NCBI GenBank assembly: GCA_003136415.1
Contig: PLEI01000076.1
Span: 1-34,972 of the forward strand
Direction: 5' to 3'
Length of the DNA stretch: 34,972 bases
DNA from: Acidimicrobiaceae bacterium
GTDB taxonomy: Bacteria; Actinomycetota; Acidimicrobiia; Acidimicrobiales; RAAP-2
The notes beneath the pieces are model-generated. The model was not told the DNA's origin. It did no database searches and saw only the letters and a program-made list of their open reading frames with translations. Shown piece by piece: positions 12,315-34,972 of this stretch (the stretch's first letter is position 1; every line of letters begins with the position of its first letter). The translations under genes and the position numbers were made by a program.

Positions 12315-12659
12315 CTAGCCACGTAGCAAATTCGCCACGAGGTCGAGACGACCGGGCACCACGTGCCAGTACGTCCAGCGACCGCGCTTTTCACCGCTAA
12401 TGAGACCGGCCCCGGCCAGGATGCGGGTGTGATGCGACACGGTGGGCTGGCTCTTGCCCACGGGAGCTTCGAGGTTGCAACTGCAGGCCTCCTTCTCCGA
12501 GGCGATGATCGAAAAGATGCGCAACCGCACCGGATCGCTGAGCGCGTCAAAAATAAGGGCAACGTCGCGCGCCTCGTCCTCGCTCATCATCTGGGTCGTC
12601 ACCGGACAGCAATTATCCAGCGACGATTCAATTCTGGCTTCGATTAAACGGCGGACCAC
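12315..12659 (-). CDS. arsR: ArsR-family arsenic-responsive repressor
   Basis: Winged-helix metalloregulator that leaves its operator when it binds arsenite or antimonite. The chosen GTG at 12659 has GAGG 5 nt upstream and gives 114 aa. The longer track ORF (start 12788) would run through the promoter region. The helix-turn-helix reads VGKSQPTVSHHTRILAGAGL. Cysteines lie at positions 17 and 18 (NCCP) and 59 and 61 (ACSCNL). This spacing matches the N-terminal Cys pair plus alpha-3 Cys described for the Corynebacterium glutamicum ArsR sensor, with an extra Cys giving the CxC of classical ArsR. It is divergent from acr3-arsC and presumably regulates both directions. Confidence 0.92.
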   Translation of the reverse strand: MVRRLIEARIESSLDNCCPVTTQMMSEDEARDVALIFDALSDPVRLRIFSIIASEKEACSCNLEAPVGKSQPTVSHHTRILAGAGLISGEKRGRWTYWHVVPGRLDLVANLLRG

Positions 12660-12671
12660 TCTGACCTCACA

Positions 12672-12700
12672 TTGACACTTATCGATAAGTTTGCCATACT
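12672..12700 (+). promoter_or_regulatory. Candidate promoter for acr3-arsC
   Basis: TTGACA (12672-12677), a 17-nt spacer and CATACT (12695-12700) make a good sigma-70-type promoter pointing towards acr3. The spacer holds the palindrome ACTTATCGATAAGT (12677-12690). Transcription would start near 12707, inside the adjacent operator. Confidence 0.55.
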
Positions 12701-12701
12701 G

Positions 12702-12717
12702 ATTGACATACATCAAT
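12702..12717. promoter_or_regulatory. Probable ArsR operator
   Basis: ATTGA-CATACA-TCAAT is a perfect 5-6-5 inverted repeat of the kind bound by ArsR/SmtB repressors. It lies at the predicted transcription start of acr3, where a bound repressor would block initiation. Binding is inferred. Confidence 0.6.
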
Positions 12718-12750
12718 GTTAGGGGTTCCGTGTCGTGCTCAGTCGTCGGG

Positions 12751-12773
12751 CCGCCGAGCGAATTTCTCGGCGG
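12751..12773 (+). promoter_or_regulatory. Hairpin in the acr3 leader
   Basis: CCGCCGAG-CGAATTT-CTCGGCGG forms a perfect 8-bp stem with a 7-nt loop in the ~180-nt leader of acr3. It is followed by a 13-nt palindrome GAGGCACTGCCTC (12807-12819). No T-run follows, so it is more likely an mRNA 5' structure than a terminator. Confidence 0.45.
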
Positions 12774-12884
12774 TCGAAACAGCGTCATTCATCGCATTGC
12801 GGGGTTGAGGCACTGCCTCGTTGGTCCACGCGGGCGCTGGCCGTCGGGAACCTCGTCGCCCATCCTCGAAGGGAGTAATCCATC

Positions 12885-13985
12885 GTGAGCGAGATTGAGA
12901 ACGTCACCGAATCGGTCGAGCACGTGACGGTTATTGCCCGTCTCTCCTTTCTCGACCGCTTCCTACCCCTCTGGCTGGGTCTGGCCATGGCGAGTGGCAT
13001 CGGTCTGGGTCGCGCCATCCCGAGTCTGGCGTCGCACCTCAACTCGGTGCAGGTGACGTCGGGGACGTCGCTGCCCATTTTTCTGGGCCTGCTCATCATG
13101 ATGTACCCGGTACTCGCCAAGGTCCGATACGACCGCATCACCACGGTAACGAGTGACCGACGTCTGCTGGTCTCCTCGCTCGTGCTCAACTGGATCGTCG
13201 GCCCGGCGGTGATGTTCGCGTTGGCCTGGCTGCTCTTGCCGGACTTGCCGACGTACCGCACGGGACTCATCATCGTGGGGCTGGCGCGATGCATCGCGAT
13301 GGTGCTCATCTGGAACGACCTCTCGGGAGGCAACCGTGAAGCGGGAGCCGTCCTGGTCGCTCTCAACTCGTTGTTCCAAATTGTCGCCTTCGCCCTCCTC
13401 GGCTACTTCTACCTGGAGTTACTGCCGCGCTGGCTCGGACTCAGCACCCAGGGTCTGCACCTGTCGATCGCCAAGATTGCCGAGACGGTGGCGATCTTCC
13501 TCGGAATACCGCTCGTGGCGGGTTATCTCACCCGTACGTGGGGTGAACGCCTGAAGGGTCGCACCTGGTACGAGACCAAGTTTCTACCCCGACTGGGACC
13601 GTTCGCCCTCTACGGCCTTCTCTACACGGTCGTCATTCTTTTCGCTCTGCAGGGTCACACCATCACGTCGCGCCCCGGTGACGTCGCGCGTATCGCGCTA
13701 CCACTGCTGTGCTACTTCGCCATCATGTGGACTGGCTCCTTCGCCCTCGGCCGCGCCATTGGACTCCCCTACGACCGCACCGCCACCCTGGCCTTCACCG
13801 CGGCGGGCAACAACTTCGAACTGGCCATCGCCGTGGCCATCGGTGTCTTCGGGGTGACGAGCGGCGAAGCGCTGGCCGGAGTAGTGGGGCCACTCATTGA
13901 AGTACCCGTGCTCGTCGCCCTGGTGTACGTCTCACTCTGGGCGAGGGGCCGGTACTTCCCCGCCGCGATGAAGGAGAACCAGTGA
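12885..13985 (+). CDS. arsB: ACR3-family arsenite efflux permease
   Basis: Inner-membrane arsenite/H+ antiporter of 366 aa with about ten transmembrane helices. The ACR3 hallmark VGLARCIAMVLIWNDLS in the fourth helix carries the conserved Cys needed for arsenite transport. TAAGNNFELAIAVAIGVFG in the ninth holds the conserved Glu, and PLIEVPVLVALVYVSL is the usual final helix. The GTG start at 12885 is preceded by AAGGGAG. The gene belongs to a two-gene operon with arsC (GTGA overlap) under the divergent arsR. It exports the arsenite produced by ArsC. The gene is commonly named arsB or acr3 although it is not of the E. coli ArsB family. Confidence 0.95.
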   Translation: MSEIENVTESVEHVTVIARLSFLDRFLPLWLGLAMASGIGLGRAIPSLASHLNSVQVTSGTSLPIFLGLLIMMYPVLAKVRYDRITTVTSDRRLLVSSLVLNWIVGPAVMFALAWLLLPDLPTYRTGLIIVGLARCIAMVLIWNDLSGGNREAGAVLVALNSLFQIVAFALLGYFYLELLPRWLGLSTQGLHLSIAKIAETVAIFLGIPLVAGYLTRTWGERLKGRTWYETKFLPRLGPFALYGLLYTVVILFALQGHTITSRPGDVARIALPLLCYFAIMWTGSFALGRAIGLPYDRTATLAFTAAGNNFELAIAVAIGVFGVTSGEALAGVVGPLIEVPVLVALVYVSLWARGRYFPAAMKENQ

Positions 13986-14392
13986 GTGACCGTCCGCACA
14001 TCCTGTTCTTGTGCGTCCACAACGCCGGACGCAGCCAGATGGGCGCCGCCTTCGCTCGCGAGCTCGGAACGAACCGCGTGGTCGTCTACTCCGCGGGCTC
14101 CGCGCCCGGCGAGACGCTCAATCGCGCCGTGGTGGCGGCGATGGACGAAGTCGGCATCGACATCACGGACGAAAGCCCGAAGAAGCTCACCGACCAGATG
14201 GCGCGCGACGCTGACGTCATCATCACGATGGGCTGTGGCGACGAATGCCCGTACTACCCCGGCAAGCGCTACGACGACTGGGAACTCACCGACCCCGCGG
14301 GACAGCCCCTCGAGGTCGTGCGCGGTGTTCGCGATGACATCAAGCGCCGGGTGAGTGAATTATTGCACGAGCTCGGCGCGCTAGCGCAGTAG
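13982..14392 (+). CDS. arsC: Arsenate reductase, LMW-phosphatase fold
   Basis: Cytoplasmic reductase converting arsenate to arsenite, 136 aa. The P-loop LCVHNAGRSQM gives the Cx5R nucleophile site (C11 and R17). MGCGDECPYYPG supplies two more cysteines, at 85 and 89, in the redox helix region. The C85/C89 spacing differs from the C82/C89 pair of the staphylococcal thioredoxin-coupled enzyme, so the electron donor may be thioredoxin or mycothiol. It is translationally coupled to acr3 through a 4-nt overlap. The last 12 nt overlap the end of a convergent truncated hydrolase gene. Confidence 0.94.
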   Translation: MSDRPHILFLCVHNAGRSQMGAAFARELGTNRVVVYSAGSAPGETLNRAVVAAMDEVGIDITDESPKKLTDQMARDADVIITMGCGDECPYYPGKRYDDWELTDPAGQPLEVVRGVRDDIKRRVSELLHELGALAQ

Positions 14393-16753: not shown

Positions 16754-18061
16754 TCAATTCTGCGATATCACTAGACCTTTGCATAGATTGACGCAAGGTA
16801 TACGAGGCAACGAGAAATGACGATGGCGCACGGAGGAGCTCCATACCCAGGTGGGCCAACCACTCCATGGTGTCGGGTTGTGGTGGATGTCGTCGAACGC
16901 GAAGAGGACGAGAGCGAGCCAACAGCCCGTGGCCCGCGACAGTGGAGAGTCGGCGATATCGCGCAGGACCAAGGTGGCACCGGTAGCCTGGCAGTAGTAA
17001 CCAAACAAGTTCTCCTCAAAAACCAAGCGCAGTGACCAACAGGTGGCGAGAAGACCTACGACAATGACGGGGTCGCTGCGCATATCTGGCCGACGCGACA
17101 AACGCCAGAGTGAGGTGAGAACCGCGGCTAATGGCGGACCAACGCGTGAGAGTGCGAGACCGACGCCCGAACTCACGTGAAGTTCGGCCATTCAGGTACC
17201 GGAGTGGATTGTGGTATCGCCGGTTCCCAAGAAAATCGCCGTCAGGGCGCCTCGTCCCGCAACGTCGTACATCGTCAGCGCCACAACAAGCGTAGTGATG
17301 GCACCACCCAAAATAAGCCTTCGTCGGTCGCGAGAGTTCGAGACAATAATCAGGACAATGACCGCCAAGATGGCGTATTGCAGGCTCATGACTGCGAAGG
17401 CGACGAAGGCGCCAGCCGCATACGGATGACGCCGCAACCACAGGGCAACGGTCCCCAGAATCATCGCCAGCGCCCACTGATCCTGTGGGTGATAGGCCTC
17501 TCGTACCGCCATAATTACCGGAGGAATGACGGCGAAAGTGATGGGCACCAGCCACGTGAATCGTGTTCCTCGTAACTTCGTCGAACCCACGAGAGCAGTG
17601 CCCGCAATGCAGAGGGCGAACCACGCGACCAGTGCGGTCGGTAGGACCGAAAGCAGGATCCCTGAACTGCTCGCCCACGCGGTAAAACCAGCGAAAGCAT
17701 CATAACAATTGGCTCAAATTTGCGCCGATGAGAGAAATGGTGTCGAGAATCCGGCACGAGTCAACCATTGCACGAATGCTGACGCCAAGGGATAGATCGG
17801 ACCACTCAACGGAACTGACGAGCCCCATGGCGGATAGGAGCACGACCAGTGCCCGTGAGCCATCATGAGCGAGCTATACATCGACACTTCAACGTCCCCC
17901 GGTTAGTACCCGCGGGTCACATTGATCAACAACCCGTACAGGGCGCCTCCCGCACCAACGACGATTGTGGTGTGCCACCAACGGGTGGGCCGAAAAAGCC
18001 ACCGCCTCAACCGAGAATCAGAGTCAGCTAAGTTCCGTGGCTTACGCTCCATTGTCCTCAT
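16754..18061 (-). pseudogene. Multi-TM membrane protein gene with three in-frame stops, homologous to 20553-21899
   Basis: One minus-strand frame from ATG 18061 reads through homologous sequence almost to 16754. It is broken by TAA at 17905-17903, TGA at 17716-17714 and TGA at 17194-17192. All three stops are in the same frame, so no frameshift separates the pieces. Segments line up with the intact paralogue: SMYSSLMMAHGHWSCSYPPW, YHPQD, GTGD and LRLVFEENLFGYY correspond to STYFAWTVSHAHFACAYVNP, FHPQD, GTGG and WRLVFEINVWGYY. Near the 3' end (about 16840) another frame looks more membrane-like (CAIVISRCLVYLASIYAKV), so a late frameshift is also likely. It is probably a dead gene copy. The ORF track shows only pieces (17903-18214, 17192-17590, 16754-17191). 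Confidence 0.8.
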
Positions 18062-18075
18062 CGCGACGCTAGCGC

Positions 18076-18105
18076 TCGACTGTCCCCCACTTGGGGGATG
18101 GTCGA
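18076..18105 (-). other. Hairpin upstream of the membrane pseudogene
   Basis: TCGAC...GTCGA encloses CCCCC-ACTT-GGGGG, giving a two-tier stem with a 4-nt loop just before the pseudogene start. It could be a leader structure or an old terminator; no T-run follows on either strand. Confidence 0.4.
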
Positions 18106-18709
18106 GATGGTACGCCTCCGGCAACGTGCAAAACAACGCGGTTTTCTTGGTCGCCCGCGAGATCTGATTGATGCCGCTTGGTGGTGATCTGAGGTTCGAA
18201 ATTAGATGCGGCAAAAGACGCGAATTGTCGAAGTGTGAGAGGACGAGGCGACAATTAATCTTGCTCTGGATCGCTGTCGTTACAACCGTCGCACTGACAC
18301 CACTGGGAAGGCTCAGACTCTCGTCAAAACGATGTGCTGGACGTTGAGGACTTCGGCGTTTACCTCGGGTTGGTCAGAGGTCACGGTTGACCGCCGCTCG
18401 ACACTTCATTGGACTGAGAAAGGCCCCACCATCATGCGTCGCGTCAGAGACGTACTTGCAGAAGAACAGACAACCTGTTGAACTCTTGCCGTTGATATTG
18501 TCCAACGTAACAAAGAACTGCACGAATCTGAAGTTAACTTGCCTGCATCGACAAATGGGAGTCAGCAATCACTAGGAGAATTGTTTGTTCCTGACCGCTG
18601 CCAATCATTCCATTGCCGAAATCTAAGGACGTTTTATGAAAGTGTTCAACTTGTTGCCGAAGAGTAAGCGGGTTGATGCAAGATTCTCGCCCAGAGTCAA
18701 TCCTGTCTC
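18106..18709. other. Gene-poor stretch of about 600 nt
   Basis: No convincing coding sequence was seen on either strand. The small track ORFs here (18387-18575 and 18374-18568) lack recognisable motifs and lie antisense to each other. The base composition is more AT-rich than elsewhere in the window. It may hold promoters for the divergent membrane genes or decayed sequence. Confidence 0.4.
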
Positions 18710-20032
18710 GTGATTACTGAATCTGAAGGCGCAGTACAGAGGGAGCGATTTAGTCGTATTCGCCTGAACGGTTGGCCCCTTGGATTTCTTCTCCTCCTCG
18801 TCGCAACTGGGATGGCGTTCTCTTGTTATTGGAACCAACTTTTCTACCACCATTCAATTTGGATGACCCCGCCCGATCTCTGGGGCACCTTTCGTGCGTC
18901 GCAATACGTCGTCTGGGGAGGCGAAGGTCAGATCTACAACAACCAGGCCGCCTTCCAGACGTTTCCGGGCATCGCAATCATCCTTGCCCCAATTGCGAAG
19001 ATTTCGAGCATCTTCCGCTTGTCCGCCAGTTTTCCGGTCAATTTGCCGAGGCCTTCGGCATGGTTGCTGCTTGGGCCCACCAACTTCATTTTGGGCGCTC
19101 TACTCCTTTTTCCCCTGGACCGACTCGCGAGACGTCTCCTAATCACCGCACGGCGCCGAATCTTCTTCCTGATTGTCGAATCAGCACTCATCTGGCCCTC
19201 AGTCGCATTATGGGGCCACCCTGAAGACGCTCTATCACTCGCACTCGGGATCTACGGAATGCTGGCAGCGTTTGACAGCGCATGGTTTCGGGTTGGTGCG
19301 TTCTTCGGACTCGCGATTGCCGTTCAGCCACTCATCCTTTTGATTGTGCCGATAGCTCTGGCTTTCGTCCCAATTCGACGATGGCCACTTGTGACAATCG
19401 AAGCCGTCGTTCCCTCACTTGTGCTCCTGCTCTCACCCTTAATCCAAGAATGGGGGCCAACTACCCAGAGGCTCTTGCGACAACCAAATTTTGTCCTTTA
19501 CAATCATCCGACACCGTGGATCTCGTTGGCGCCAGTCCTAACTCCTAGCCACTTCACCACTATTCATTCCGTGAGGTACGTGACACTGAGCGACGGACAT
19601 CGCCAAGTAGTCGAGGTCACCAAAAGAGTGTTCCTACCAGCCGTGGTCTCCGCGGGACCGGGTCGAATCATCGCTGTCCTTATTGCCTGCCTAGTCGGCG
19701 TCCTAGCGAAACTCCTCAAGCCATCACTAACCCAAGTCGTGTGGCTCACGGCACTCGTGCTCTCGCTTCGTTGCTTGTTTGAACCAGTGATGGTCCCCTA
19801 CTACCTACTACCGGGTCTCGCGCTCGCAGTCGTGATTGTTTCGACGAGCAGCCACTCGCGATTTACACTGGCGGTCGTTTCGGCATCAGTATGCACTTTT
19901 CTCAGCTATCAACATCTGAGCCCATGGGTCTACTACTTCGCGATGGCTTTCCCCCTTCTAGTGGTTCTTGCCGTCTCAGTGCCCCCATCATGGCGACGAC
20001 CGAAAGAGTCCGTAGAGCAAATGTTTGGGTAA
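18710..20032 (+). CDS. Polytopic membrane protein with WGHPED motif
   Basis: Protein of 440 aa with about ten to twelve predicted transmembrane segments and a short cytoplasmic N-terminus. The family is not recognised with certainty; the layout (long first extracellular loop, many helices) is compatible with GT-C-like glycosyltransferases. It shares two features with the gene at 20553 and the pseudogene at 16754: HP[EQ]D after a helix (ALWGHPEDALSLALGIYG) followed by two more helices, and a distal LRCLFEPVMVPYY resembling LVFE...GYY. Overall it is more diverged than the other two. GTG 18710 has no strong ribosome site, so the start is uncertain. Confidence 0.65.
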   Translation: MITESEGAVQRERFSRIRLNGWPLGFLLLLVATGMAFSCYWNQLFYHHSIWMTPPDLWGTFRASQYVVWGGEGQIYNNQAAFQTFPGIAIILAPIAKISSIFRLSASFPVNLPRPSAWLLLGPTNFILGALLLFPLDRLARRLLITARRRIFFLIVESALIWPSVALWGHPEDALSLALGIYGMLAAFDSAWFRVGAFFGLAIAVQPLILLIVPIALAFVPIRRWPLVTIEAVVPSLVLLLSPLIQEWGPTTQRLLRQPNFVLYNHPTPWISLAPVLTPSHFTTIHSVRYVTLSDGHRQVVEVTKRVFLPAVVSAGPGRIIAVLIACLVGVLAKLLKPSLTQVVWLTALVLSLRCLFEPVMVPYYLLPGLALAVVIVSTSSHSRFTLAVVSASVCTFLSYQHLSPWVYYFAMAFPLLVVLAVSVPPSWRRPKESVEQMFG

Positions 20033-20552
20033 TCAATTGCCAAGGGCAATGCCCGAATCGTCGGCTACATTGACCATCAACCTACGGGTTCCCAACGTCG
20101 TACGTGAAGACACCAAGCACTCGGAGTACGGACCGACATTGCCTTTAATTCGTGCGCGTCGAGAATCCGTAGTCAACAGAGGATCGCAGTTCTGATTACG
20201 CGCACTCGTTTGCGAATTTGAGATCAGCACGCATGTCGGTACCATTTGATGAGTGGCGGCGAACGACAACGTGCTCATCGGGTCGCGACACTCGTTCTAC
20301 CAGATGTTTTTCCTCAACTCTCGATGTCGGGAGGCTCGTGCGGAACTATCGTTCACGATCGTCACCTGGTCAGATTAGAAATACCCGCGCGAGCGTCACC
20401 AACACCATTTCAATGAATCTTCACGGTTCGAGTGTGACGGCCGGCCCCACGCAGGGCCATCAGTCCGCAGCGCGTTCCAGTATCTCTCGGATGGGCTACC
20501 ACGTCGAGACCTCACTATTGTCGTGTCCACCCAAATGCTTCACGAGGTAACT
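20033..20552. other. Intergenic stretch of about 520 nt with a small hairpin
   Basis: A short hairpin ATTGCC-AAG-GGCAAT (20036-20050) follows 4 nt after the stop of the upstream gene. The rest has no supported gene. The track ORF 20218-20550 is rich in Ser, Arg and Thr, has no motif, and looks like a shadow or noise. Confidence 0.4.
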
Positions 20553-21899
20553 ATGGTGGGCCGGGATAAGAAGGTACCCAGCGAAGGGCCACGTGACATC
20601 TTTCAAGTGGAGCGCCCTGTGAAGAAATTGCAACCTCGCGGAGCCGTTGCCGCCATCTGGCTTCGATCGCCCCTGTCGGCCGGCCCCGCAATCGCTGTTG
20701 CGCTCGGCGCTGTGGCGATATTTGTAGTGCTGAGCGTCACAGTAGGCGGTCCCAACGCCGCTGATTCGAATGTCTCGACCTACTTCGCTTGGACCGTCTC
20801 GCACGCTCATTTCGCGTGTGCCTATGTGAATCCACGAAACCAAGGCGGAACCGCAGCTCCCCTGTATCCGCTCATCTCCTCGGGATTTGCCGCTGTGCTG
20901 AGAATTGGCCATGGTGTGCCCTTCCCTAATTCCGCTGTCCTTGGGCGACACTGCGCGAGCGCAATTCCTGCGATTTACAAGTGGTCAGTCACATCGAAGG
21001 CTCTGACCACGACATTGTGGATTGGTTACGTGGGTTGGCTCGTCCTGGCTTTCGGTGTGCTGCGTCTCATTCGCACGGTATCGAGAAGACCCAGGCGAGG
21101 AGAGGCCATAACACTCCTCCTAGTTTCGTGGGCACCCCCGGTGATGATGTGCCTAGTGGATTTTTTTCATCCCCAAGATCTCCTCGCATTCGGACTAGTC
21201 CTACTTTCGCTCAGCTTCGTCACGCGCCAGCGTTGGATGGTGGCGGGCCTCTTGCTGGGACTAGCGGTACTAGCCCAGCAATTCGCCTGGCTCGCGGTCG
21301 TGGCCCTAGTCATTGTTACAAAGAAAACCGCCAGATCGCAATTGGTGGCCGGTCTCGCCATTTCAATTGGCGTGGTCGCGGCTCCACTTCTCTGGCTCAC
21401 CTCAGGTCGCGCGTGGGAATCAATTGTTTATGGCACAGGTGGTTCGTCATGGTCACAGTCGCTCCTCGTCCAAACGGGTCTGCGCGGGAATAGTCTCTAC
21501 TTGGTCGCGCGACTGACCCCACTATTGATGACTGCCATCACCGCGTCCTGGATGCGTTCTCGCTACCGAGATGAGATTCTCCGACCGGTACCACTGATTT
21601 CACTCATTGCCGTATCGATGCTATGGCGACTGGTTTTTGAGATCAATGTATGGGGCTACTATTTCATGGCGGTTACCGTGATGCTCTTAGTACTCGCAGC
21701 AGTGAGCGGTCGGTTGCGACTTGGAATTGTCGCATGGGTAATCGTCGTATCACTGGCAAGTGCCGATGCCGAGATGGTTCAGCGCCCTTGGTATGACCCA
21801 ATACCCATGTGGGTTTGGCAGGGAATTATGCTGATATGGGCATTTGCGCTCGTGATTAACGCATTGCGAGCGACACCGGCTGGGGAGAGCACCCGTTGA
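20553..21899 (+). CDS. Polytopic membrane protein with FHPQD motif
   Basis: Protein of 448 aa with a ~55-residue cytoplasmic N-terminus and about ten transmembrane helices. The ATG at 20553 has GAGG 5 nt upstream and is preferred over GTG 20523. The first extracellular loop contains DSNVSTYFAWTVSHAHFACAY. FFHPQDLLAFGLVLLS follows mid-protein, and MLWRLVFEINVWGYYFMAV lies in a late helix. These segments are conserved in the minus-strand pseudogene at 16754-18061 and partly in the gene at 18710. The charged His-Pro-x-Asp and Glu at helix ends are plausible active or transport-site residues. A GT-C-type glycosyltransferase or a lipid-linked substrate enzyme is possible but unproven. Confidence 0.7.
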   Translation: MVGRDKKVPSEGPRDIFQVERPVKKLQPRGAVAAIWLRSPLSAGPAIAVALGAVAIFVVLSVTVGGPNAADSNVSTYFAWTVSHAHFACAYVNPRNQGGTAAPLYPLISSGFAAVLRIGHGVPFPNSAVLGRHCASAIPAIYKWSVTSKALTTTLWIGYVGWLVLAFGVLRLIRTVSRRPRRGEAITLLLVSWAPPVMMCLVDFFHPQDLLAFGLVLLSLSFVTRQRWMVAGLLLGLAVLAQQFAWLAVVALVIVTKKTARSQLVAGLAISIGVVAAPLLWLTSGRAWESIVYGTGGSSWSQSLLVQTGLRGNSLYLVARLTPLLMTAITASWMRSRYRDEILRPVPLISLIAVSMLWRLVFEINVWGYYFMAVTVMLLVLAAVSGRLRLGIVAWVIVVSLASADAEMVQRPWYDPIPMWVWQGIMLIWAFALVINALRATPAGESTR

Positions 21900-22050: not shown

Positions 22051-22806
22051 CTATTGACTGTGGTCACCGCGTGGTGCCCGGACCTCGTGGTGACCACGGT
22101 GAATCCGACCTCGCCAGCCTTTCCAGCGAAAGCCGTCGACCGCTTCGAGACCTTCGTCAAGCACTCGGCGAGCGACGACGCCCTTGACCGCTTTGGCATC
22201 ATGACCAGCAATGCCTTCTCCACCATGACGTAGAAATGACACTGTGAGTATTCGCTCCTGTTGCAGTGTTGCCAGGCGCATGGCGCCGTCGTGCTCCTTG
22301 GGTAGCAAGTTCACGAATGTGGCACCATCAATTCCCTCGAGTGCGCGCGCGAGGGTCGGGCGCCAGAAGGAAGCCACGTTGCCGAGATCACCAAGATTCA
22401 CCTTCATAGTGAGGCGGTAGTCGGCGATCTCGTCGGTACCCGTGGAGAGTCCGTAAAGACCCGACGGAATGAGTACCCGTGACCGCTGCTCCTCTGACAG
22501 CGTTAAGGGCTCAAGGTGCGACCAAACGACGCCGCTGTAGCGCTGCCAGGCCGGCAACGTCGGCGCTACTCCCTCAACAATCAACCGCGACGACGCAACG
22601 GCCCGCTCGAGCAACGCACCGCGGACCTTGAGGACCCGACTCACTTCCTCGGGTGACGCGTCTCTCAGCAGTGACGCCAGAGCGGCGCGCACCTGCTCGC
22701 GCGCCGTGGCGAGGGACTCATCAAAGTAGCCCGTCGCGGTCGGGAGACGGCCACCGGATACTTTGGACTCAGAAGGTGGAAGAAGAACGAAGGCCGGTCT
22801 GCTCAC
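22051..22806 (-). CDS. yaaA: YaaA/UPF0246 family peroxide stress protein
   Basis: Cytoplasmic protein of 251 aa. The N-terminus FVLLPPSESKV is the family signature, and YSGVVWSHL, IPSGLYGLSTGTDEIADYRLTMKVNLG and FVNLLPKEH follow in the expected order. E. coli YaaA lowers intracellular free iron during peroxide stress and binds DNA with unusual structures; the role here is inferred by family. The C-terminus is Arg/His rich (GWRGRIHRGHHEVRAPRG). It lies 19 nt downstream of a small HicA-like gene on the same strand. Confidence 0.9.
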   Translation of the reverse strand: MSRPAFVLLPPSESKVSGGRLPTATGYFDESLATAREQVRAALASLLRDASPEEVSRVLKVRGALLERAVASSRLIVEGVAPTLPAWQRYSGVVWSHLEPLTLSEEQRSRVLIPSGLYGLSTGTDEIADYRLTMKVNLGDLGNVASFWRPTLARALEGIDGATFVNLLPKEHDGAMRLATLQQERILTVSFLRHGGEGIAGHDAKAVKGVVARRVLDEGLEAVDGFRWKGWRGRIHRGHHEVRAPRGDHSQ

Positions 22807-33102: not shown

Positions 33103-33708
33103 TCAGGCGAAGTTCTCGAGCTGCGACAAGTAACGGTTGAGGGCGTTCAAAGTCGCCTTGGCCGAGGAGACCAACTCGGTCTCGGCCTGGGCGATGCCGT
33201 GGCGATCAGCCTCATTGGCTCGCGGGCGCAGGGTCACGATGACCGGCCATCCGCGCACGGTCGCGACATTGACCGAACCCACCAGGTAGAACGGCACGTC
33301 GAACTCGAGTTGGCGCAGCGCATCGAGCGTCGCTTCAGCTCCGCCAATCAGCGGTCCATTTTCTGAGCGGCCTACACCCACGCGTCCATTCACGTTGAGG
33401 TGCACCTCGCAGAATCCCTCGTGCGAGTTGAACTCCGCGCGCACCAAGGCGACGCGGCCCGCGTCGCTCGCTGCTCCTCGTGGCGCAGCGGGCACGGGCT
33501 TCATCTCCTCGACGCTCACGGTGGCGTCGGGGTAATAGAGGCTCACAATCTGCTTGGCCACCACCCGCACGGGTCCGGCGTCGTCACCGTTGACCACTAG
33601 TGACACGGCGTCAACGTCCCCCTTGTCGCCGTAGCGGAAACCCACGTTCACGACGCCCGGCAGGGCGCGCAGTTCGAGTTCGAAATCTTCTTCGGTCGGC
33701 GAAATCAT
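33103..33708 (-). CDS. Conserved hypothetical protein coupled to GGDEF gene
   Basis: Protein of 201 aa, not assigned to a named family. Two parts are visible: an N-terminal ~65-residue ACT-like segment (LRALPGVVNVGFRYGD ... VSLYYPDATVSVEEM) and a C-terminal ~115-residue domain (GRVALVRAEFNSHEGFCEVHL, GPLIGGAEATLDALRQL, VRGWPVIVTLRP, ATLNALNRYL). There is no signal peptide and there are no transmembrane spans. Its ATG overlaps the stop of the diguanylate-cyclase gene by 4 nt, so it is the last gene of an EAL-GGDEF operon. A role in nucleotide signalling is possible but unsupported by motifs. Confidence 0.7.
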   Translation of the reverse strand: MISPTEEDFELELRALPGVVNVGFRYGDKGDVDAVSLVVNGDDAGPVRVVAKQIVSLYYPDATVSVEEMKPVPAAPRGAASDAGRVALVRAEFNSHEGFCEVHLNVNGRVGVGRSENGPLIGGAEATLDALRQLEFDVPFYLVGSVNVATVRGWPVIVTLRPRANEADRHGIAQAETELVSSAKATLNALNRYLSQLENFA

Positions 33709-34529
33709 CGGTGAATAATACCCCTCTTAGCGTAGAGACGAGCGTCGGCAATCCTGGTGAGCTCCGTTGGATCGGTCGAGTCACGCGGCGACGTGGCCGT
33801 CCCTGTGGTGAATTCAATAGTCTCGCCCGCCTTGGCGACGTTGTCGCGCAAGCGTTCCACGAAGCCCATGGCTTCGTGTCCTTCAGCGTTGTTCAAGATG
33901 ACGGCGAACTCGTCGCCCCCGATGCGTGCGACCAAGTCGCCCTGGCGTACCGAGAGGCGCAGCGCGAAACCGAAGTGGCGCAGCAAGCGGTCGCCAACGT
34001 CGTGTCCCGAGCGGTCGTTGACGCCCTTGAAGTCCTTGAGGTCGATCATCACCAGCGTGAACGCCCAGCCGTAACGCGCGGAGCGCACGGTCGAGTTGGC
34101 GAGGGCGATGTCGAAGGTCCGGCGATTCGCGATGGTGGTCAGAGCATCGTGGGCGGCCGCGAAGCGCGCCAGGTGCAGCGAGAGGGCGAGTTGACACGCC
34201 GTGCGCACCGCGTCGAGTTCCACTTGGGGCACGATGTCGGGCTCACAGTAGACGCCCGGGGCCGACGAGAGGCGTCCCGCGCGGTCCGCGTGGACGGCGG
34301 CTCCGCCGAGGCGGAACTCCTGAGCGGTGAGCGACCCGTGCTCGAGAACCACGACGACATCGTCCAATTCATAGCGCTTGGCGAGTTGCTCCAACACCGA
34401 ATAGATGAAACCGATCCCCAATTCGTTCGTCGCCAATTCGTCGATCATGGTCTGGAACAACCACGGCTCGTAATTCGCGTCCAGGGGAGATTGGGGCACC
34501 TCGGCGAGGCTCAAGTCGTTATTCAGCAT
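33705..34529 (-). CDS. GGDEF-domain diguanylate cyclase
   Basis: Protein of 274 aa that probably makes cyclic-di-GMP from GTP. The first ~120 residues form a soluble sensory segment with weak GAF-like character. The GGDEF domain follows: ALTTIANRRTFD, FTLVMIDLKDFKGVND, GHDVGDRLLRHF, then ARIGGDEFAVIL at about 204-208. The inhibitory I-site RxxD is present (R195-D198, five residues before GGDEF), so product feedback is expected. The chosen ATG 34529 overlaps the stop of the upstream EAL gene by 1 nt; the longer track ORF (34667) reads antisense through the EAL C-terminus. Confidence 0.88.
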   Translation of the reverse strand: MLNNDLSLAEVPQSPLDANYEPWLFQTMIDELATNELGIGFIYSVLEQLAKRYELDDVVVVLEHGSLTAQEFRLGGAAVHADRAGRLSSAPGVYCEPDIVPQVELDAVRTACQLALSLHLARFAAAHDALTTIANRRTFDIALANSTVRSARYGWAFTLVMIDLKDFKGVNDRSGHDVGDRLLRHFGFALRLSVRQGDLVARIGGDEFAVILNNAEGHEAMGFVERLRDNVAKAGETIEFTTGTATSPRDSTDPTELTRIADARLYAKRGIIHR

Positions 34530-34972
34530 TAGCCGTGGACCACGTGATTGGTGAGGCTCTGCTGGCTGCGAAGCGACTCGATGGGAATCGAACCAGCGCG
34601 CAGAATCCGCTCCAAGTCCTTGGCCGGCACCGGCCGCGAAATCAGGTAGCCCTGACCGCGCTGGCATCCCAGGTCCACCAACTTGTCGGCGATTTCCTTG
34701 GTCTCGATGCCCTCGGCAACTACTTTGAGGCTCAAGGCGCTACCCAGTCGAATAATGGAATCGACGATCGCGCGGTCGTAGATGTCGTGAGTAATGCCCT
34801 GGACGAAGCTGAGGTCGAGCTTCAGGACGTTCACCGGGAGGTTCTTGAGCTCGGTCATCGACGCGAATCCGGTACCGAAATCGTCGAGGGCGACTTCCAC
34901 GCCGAGCGACTGGAAGCCGAGCAGGATCTTGACGGTCTTTTCGGGCTTGTCGAGGACGGTGTACTCGGTGAT
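34529..34972 (-). CDS. EAL-domain protein, C-terminal part (runs off the window)
   Basis: Only the last 147 codons are in the window; the frame stays open to 34972. ITEYTVLDKPEKTVKILLGF, ALDDFGTGFASMTELKNLPVNVLKLD, VVAEGIETKEIADKLVDLGC and QGYLISRPVP match the distal half of an EAL phosphodiesterase, including the DDFGTG metal/loop-6 region and EGIET. The N-terminal EAL motif itself is outside, so activity cannot be judged. It precedes and overlaps the GGDEF gene, an unusual split of two domains often fused in one protein. Confidence 0.88.
   Translation of the reverse strand: MTEYTVLDKPEKTVKILLGFQSLGVEVALDDFGTGFASMTELKNLPVNVLKLDLSFVQGITHDIYDRAIVDSIIRLGSALSLKVVAEGIETKEIADKLVDLGCQRGQGYLISRPVPAKDLERILRAGSIPIESLRSQQSLTNHVVHG

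Follow-up and report, generated by a model that had tools for sequence, protein, structure and literature searches.

Membrane glycosyltransferases of the GT-C superfamily include the glucosyltransferase ALG6, and PIGU shares the fold as a non-glycosyltransferase subunit; TfpY is an accessory protein of pilin. In PimE, a GT87 mannosyltransferase, the catalytic base is proposed to be D58, and the donor phosphate or sugars are bound by Q163, K195, W319, H321 and H322; activity is abolished when D58, Q163, K195 or W319 is mutated and reduced when H321 or H322 is (PMC12041525). A GT-C enzyme can also modify pili, as TfpW is cited as a GT-C pilin glycosyltransferase in PMC11841053, and pilin glycosylation in Pseudomonas guards against pilus-binding phages (PMC11841053). 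The genes of pilin-specific glycosylating enzymes often lie close to their pilin (PMC12645811). GT-C enzymes that fall outside database families are hard to place, and in the present case a conserved motif set combined with a pilus neighborhood suggests both a testable mechanism and an acceptor.

Here we analyze two intact genes, A and B, and a pseudogene from an Acidimicrobiales draft genome of 2.64 Mb. All three lie in a window of 34,972 nucleotides, bases 1-34972 of the 46610-base contig 75. Taken as a whole, our reading, which we hold to be probable rather than secure, is that A and B are polyprenyl-phosphate-sugar-dependent GT-C glycosyltransferases, distantly related to GT87 and PimE, that act on the type IV pilus.

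Three related membrane protein genes

Gene A (18710..20032, plus strand) encodes a 440-aa membrane protein of GT-C fold whose family is linked to the pilus in Acidimicrobiales. Its Asp56 (18875..18877), HPED motif (19217..19228) and FEPVMVPYY motif (19778..19804) are followed throughout this work, and both GHPED and LRCLFEPVMVPYY are found within this open reading frame. Gene B (20523..21899, plus strand) encodes a 458-aa GT87-like GT-C membrane protein with Asp81 at 20763..20765, HPQD at 21168..21179 and FEINVWGYY at 21636..21662; FHPQD and WRLVFEINVWGYY both lie within it.

The third member is a B-family GT-C pseudogene on the minus strand (16754..18040), in which YHPQD and LRLVFEENLFGYY share the same frame. 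Three in-frame stops interrupt it (TAA at 17903-17905, TGA at 17714-17716 and TGA at 17192-17194), with the frame otherwise kept. Counting the stops, it is 28% identical to gene B across residues 33-435 (E=8.5e-39), and the B profile matches its two biggest fragments at 1e-36 and 3e-26. The pseudogene retains the HPQD motif (17480..17491), a FEENLFGYY motif (16994..17020) and a conserved N-terminal Asp codon (17894..17896, in GDVEVS) that aligns with the presumed catalytic Asp. Stop read-through or an altered genetic code is disfavored because two different stop codons occur and the adjacent genes read normally.

A sequence-only reading of this DNA had grouped the three multi-TM genes by their shared HPxD and FE...YY motifs. 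All of the strings that it quoted are present, and profile comparison by hhalign, described below, relates the families. The motifs had also been placed at the same relative positions, which holds closely for just two of the three genes, since the HPxD Asp and the FE Glu lie 155 and 154 codons apart in the pseudogene and in B, respectively, whereas in A, which carries an additional stretch (approximately residues 275-312) between HPED and FE, they are 185 codons apart. Elsewhere in the window, positions 12315-14392 hold what appears, from the sequence alone, to be an arsenic-resistance set of ArsR-like, ACR3-like transporter and ArsC-like genes.

Assignment to the GT-C superfamily

AlphaFold (AF2) models were obtained with mean pLDDT values of 91.9 for A and 85.6 for B. 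In Foldseek searches of the PDB, the top match of the B model was PimE (9dm5; probability 1.00, TM 0.52 by target), with further confident matches to ALG9, ALG12, OST and PIGU, while the A model matched PIGU first, then ALG3, PMT4 and ALG9, and ArnT with less confidence. Although the E-values were weak (7e-3 to 9e-3, approximately 0.01), the top matches had probabilities of 0.9-1.0 and were all proteins of GT-C fold. The models and Foldseek, at this E of about 0.01, thus give both A and B a GT-C fold, and the Asp that follows the first TM helix in GT-C enzymes is present in both families (D56 in 40/41 A sequences, D81 in 29/29 B sequences).

Sequence profiles give a graded picture. Pfam GT87 (PF09594) matches 22 of 30 B-family members, the best at 3e-8; the window copy of B itself scores 17.8 bits, or 19.4 when searched within the genome, and so lies under the curated cut-off of 25 bits and outside the family, and gene A has no Pfam match, GT87 included. 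Against a GT87 alignment built for this analysis, hhalign returned probabilities of 97.0% for B (1.1e-10) and 96.2% for A (2.6e-9). The A profile also matches ALG6 (E=4e-4), with HPED paired with the GHFQYN loop of that enzyme. Searching the PDB by sequence, whether with B itself or with the profile of its family, gave no match, NCBIfam searches with A and B gave nothing convincing, and a genome-collection scan using B found no relative.

We are highly confident that A and B are GT-C-superfamily glycosyltransferases. Because A has no Pfam match, B scores below the cut-off and the essential Lys of PimE is replaced by Gln, they form a divergent branch of the known GT-C superfamily and are not canonical GT87 enzymes. 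The profile check against GT-C and GT87 proposed in the sequence-only reading therefore came out on the GT-C side (hhalign to GT87, the ALG6 match and the 22/30 B members recognized by Pfam), and the proteins, rather than dispersing into unrelated families, all belong to one superfamily. What had been called an unrecognized family is indeed divergent and without proper Pfam placement, but it is a branch of a known superfamily.

Linkage to type IV pilus genes

The strongest functional evidence in this analysis comes from gene neighborhoods outside the genus. Among A loci in other Acidimicrobiales genera and families, 20/22 have a pilin, a PilT/PilB-type ATPase or pilD within approximately 16 kb, compared with 1/20 control loci that carry ordinary GT87 genes of the same class and have equal mean length, although counts across related genomes are not independent. 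Example genes were identified by Pfam and NCBIfam as PilT (above cut-off), a PilB-type ATPase (just below cut-off), PilD and N-methyl pilins.

Within the genus, many relatives share the order pilin, pilT, DUF429, GT-C gene, pilD, followed by an operon of ThiF-nitroreductase, EAL/GGDEF, GGDEF and a protein here called c9. An A gene occupies the pilD-DUF429 slot in four genomes and a B gene in ten; B stands at the distal end of the c9 operon in 12 genomes, and A between the pilin and an adjoining TM protein in 2. In 18 of the 38 genomes examined, A or B lies at most 0.6 kb from pilD, DUF429, pilT, the pilin or the adjoining TM protein, and in 11 more it is found at 6.2-7 kb, directly past the ThiF-EAL-GGDEF operon joined to pilD. 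Likewise, pilD is present in 44/50 genus genomes with A or B versus 19/49 without (related and incomplete drafts, uncorrected for kinship). As those 19 genomes have pilD with neither A nor B detected, allowing for incomplete drafts, the two genes are not required for the pilus.

Linkage to type IV pilin genes of the kind described for TfpW is thus found for A in 20/22 loci outside the genus and for A and B in the slots within it. Since their relatives in kindred soil and mine-water bacteria mostly sit amid type IV pilus genes, A and B probably modify the pilus with sugar, and we rate a role at the pilus as somewhat better than an even prospect. The sequence-only reading had not anticipated this association.

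In the genome studied here, the window enters the end of a type IV pilus region, with the 201-aa c9 protein, GGDEF and EAL/GGDEF genes at 33103..34972 on the minus strand. On this contig the region continues past the window as far as approximately 45.5 kb, with ThiF-nitroreductase, pilD, DUF429, pilT, pilin and TM protein genes. In this locus pilD and DUF429 directly abut, so that the slot between them is closed. A and B lie outside the locus, some 11-13 kb from its c9 end and 18-20 kb from pilD. They adjoin a gene at 22051-22806, as A also does in two other genomes (G224 and G186), in the first of which A is approximately 16 kb from pilD on the same contig. The copies in the window may still act on the pilus.

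The main alternative is that A and B make an envelope polysaccharide or glycolipid, as PimE and other GT87 enzymes do, and merely neighbor pilus genes. This would fit the glycolipid product of the nearest structural relative of B, the position of the window copies outside the pilus operon, and the minority of B copies found apart from the pilus locus, among them a group in a heptose-type sugar-nucleotide cassette (GmhA/GmhB/HddA-like) with a GT2 enzyme. It does not readily explain why linkage to the pilus reaches 20/22 across many families when genuine GT87 genes from the same class reach 1/20, nor why separate GT-C families, A or B, fill the same pilD-DUF429 slot, and we give it roughly one chance in four.

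Several other features of these loci were observed. The cassette of GmhA-like, epimerase, GmhB-like, transaldolase-like, HddA-like and nucleotidyltransferase genes (L097:2675-7302, with the gene set also in L099 and L100) has a GT2 enzyme close by and a B-family GT-C gene adjoining. By its gene content it looks like a heptose-nucleotide pathway supplying a membrane glycosyltransferase, with family scores under equivalog cut-offs, and as it adjoins three B copies it hints at the type of sugar in those species only. In genome G175 the pilD-DUF429 slot contains a possible short B remnant (L100:5690-6346, 44 bits) and two full B copies stand across pilD from it, which points to turnover of genes in the slot. 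Two multi-TM proteins of 628 and 539 aa without Pfam match (L090:12291-14174 and L097:9102-10718), at or near the pilus locus, could be extra GT-C enzymes. The operon of an approximately 200-aa protein without Pfam match, GGDEF, EAL/GGDEF and ThiF-nitroreductase (window 33103-34972 and L113:1-5792) is attached to pilD across much of the genus, which suggests c-di-GMP control of the pilus; in this genome ambiguous bases, probably an assembly gap, break the EAL/GGDEF open reading frame at L113 ~985-1000 (contig 75 ~34985-35000).

Conserved residues and the PimE active site

Homologues of B were sought in 99 genomes of the genus and found in 39, and those of A were sought in the genus and the order, where they occur in many families. 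In the resulting B alignment (n=30), H216, P217 and D219 are conserved in 30/30 sequences, R369 and F372 are also invariant, E373 is conserved in 28/30, and D81, H94, C99, Y101, Q253, R330, E373, Y379 and Y380 are each lost in at most 2 sequences. In the A alignment (n=42), Y76, P86, E358 (42/42) and Y365 are invariant, and D56, HPED (H170 41/42, P171 40/42, D173 40/42), Q206 and R319 are almost so. HPxD and FE-x4/5-YY are therefore near-invariant across both families, and the objection raised in advance, that HPxD might not be conserved in homologues, falls away.

To relate these residues to a characterized enzyme, the GT87 alignment, which matches PimE at 1e-47, gives the columns of D58, Q163, K195, W319, H321 and H322. 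Through it, A D56 falls on D58, the invariant Asp of GT87, GHPED on the GT87 'GQ-x-N' (PimE 162-165 region), Q206 on K195 and FEPVMVPYY on 'SP-x-SW-x-HH' (PimE W319-H322 region). The alignment of B from HPQD through FE-YY is consistent with this mapping, and B Asp81 aligns with A Asp56 and hence with D58. The conserved residues of A and B thus appear to occupy active-site positions, and it would follow from the PimE mapping that they line one cavity. Of the earlier suggestion of an active or transport site, it is the active-site side that gains support, as the motifs align with GT87/PimE active-site positions.

Several of the residues themselves are exchanged, and A and B lack PimE-like equivalents of Lys195, Gln163, Trp319 and His321/322: in the hhalign comparison the K195 column holds Gln (Lys in just 2/42 A members), Q163 His/Pro, W319 Met/Val, H321 Pro/Gly and H322 Tyr. 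As Lys195 is essential in PimE and is Gln here, contact with the donor is likely to differ from that in PimE, and the several exchanges (Gln for Lys, and Tyr or Pro/Gly for His) suggest a branch with its own donor site.

The same exchanges, namely the loss of K195 and H322, could instead point to catalytically inert GT-C-fold proteins that aid pilus assembly in the manner of PIGU or TfpY. PIGU heads the fold matches of A, and there are pilin accessory proteins without a glycosylating role (PMC11841053). We nevertheless consider inert proteins improbable, at about one chance in ten, since the Asp at the position of the catalytic base is conserved in 40/41 sequences of A and 29/29 of B and His, Asp, Gln, Arg, Glu and Tyr residues are near-invariant too.

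Relationship of the A and B families

BLASTP finds no significant similarity between A and B, but hhalign aligns the two families with 99.2% probability (E=1.8e-19) and pairs D81 with D56, HPQD with HPED and FE with FE. The B profile also recovers A-family members among open reading frames of the fetched loci, the best at approximately 1e-14. We take A, B and the pseudogene to have a common origin because the family profiles align together with their motifs and the B profile finds A members. In the B-family tree, the window copy of B is sister to a copy from another genome (support 97/99), and the pseudogene lies on a long branch in a different, distant clade. The lack of BLAST similarity between A and B, the 28% identity of the pseudogene to B and the separate clades rule out a recent triplication; as judged from the sequences, the trio is a set of old paralogues.

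That A and B are instead transporters, or unrelated proteins with many TM helices that share HPxD and FE by coincidence, as the missing BLAST similarity and a composition common among multi-TM proteins might suggest, is very improbable given the alignment of all motifs by hhalign (E=1.8e-19), their conservation in 72 sequences and the GT-C fold of every match at a probability of at least 0.9; profile-profile comparison and conservation refute chance resemblance.

Proposed function and comparison with known systems

Returning to glycosylation of the pilus as the preferred reading, a scheme modeled on three-component GT-C systems (PMC11127046) and, by analogy, on TfpW (cited in PMC11841053) can be proposed. 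A sugar would first be attached to polyprenyl phosphate by a GT2 enzyme in the cytoplasm. After flipping of this lipid-linked sugar to the outside, A or B would pass the sugar on, on the outer side of the membrane, to part of the type IV pilus, with pilin the most likely acceptor. The Asp right after the first TM helix (A D56, B D81), as the likely catalytic base, would activate an acceptor hydroxyl, probably that of a pilin Ser/Thr or of a sugar already on pilin. HPxD, in the loop equivalent to the GT87 'GQ-x-N', may bind acceptor and donor, and FE-x4/5-YY, with an Arg just before it and at the place of 'SP-x-SW-x-HH', may contact the donor phosphate. We put the likelihood that pilin is the direct acceptor close to even. 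No donor pathway linked to the window was found; other parts of the genome carry genes for candidate GtrA-type flippases and for numerous GT2 enzymes, as well as three true GT87 genes, so that supply of the donor is plausible, though unlinked.

More speculatively, and with slightly less than an even chance in our estimation, A and B could represent an undescribed GT-C branch (D...HPxD...Q...R-x2-FE-x4/5-YY) that serves Acidimicrobiales type IV pili as the accessory glycosylating their pilin, with A and B interchangeable and turning over in the same locus slots like the pilin accessory genes of Pseudomonas. One search of an open-access library turned up no paper on pilin glycosylation in Acidimicrobiales. 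If the proposal is true, a GT-C counterpart in uncultured Acidimicrobiales would extend the theme of pilin glycosylation to that lineage.

With PimE and GT87 (PF09594) they share the GT-C fold, the N-terminal Asp and motif loops at equal alignment positions, but GQxN is replaced by HPxD, SPxSWxHH by FE-x4/5-YY and Lys195 by Gln, and the context is the pilus instead of envelope lipid synthesis. The GT-C mannosyl- and glucosyltransferases ALG6, ALG3, ALG9 and ALG12 share the fold, with HPED of A on the ALG6 GHFQYN loop, but are eukaryotic and dolichol-linked, and sequence similarity to them is weak. Among enzymes that modify pilins, the O-oligosaccharyltransferases TfpO/PilO, TfpM, PglL and PglS are of the WaaL/O-antigen-ligase type, unlike the A/B family, although the genes of TfpO, TfpM and PglS are linked to that of the substrate (PMC12645811). 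A parallel in proposed role is TfpW, the GT-C pilin arabinosyltransferase of Pseudomonas aeruginosa; it belongs to another phylum and is likened to A and B by its description in papers rather than by sequence, and it is encoded with type IV pilin genes, A and B being proposed to work in like manner.
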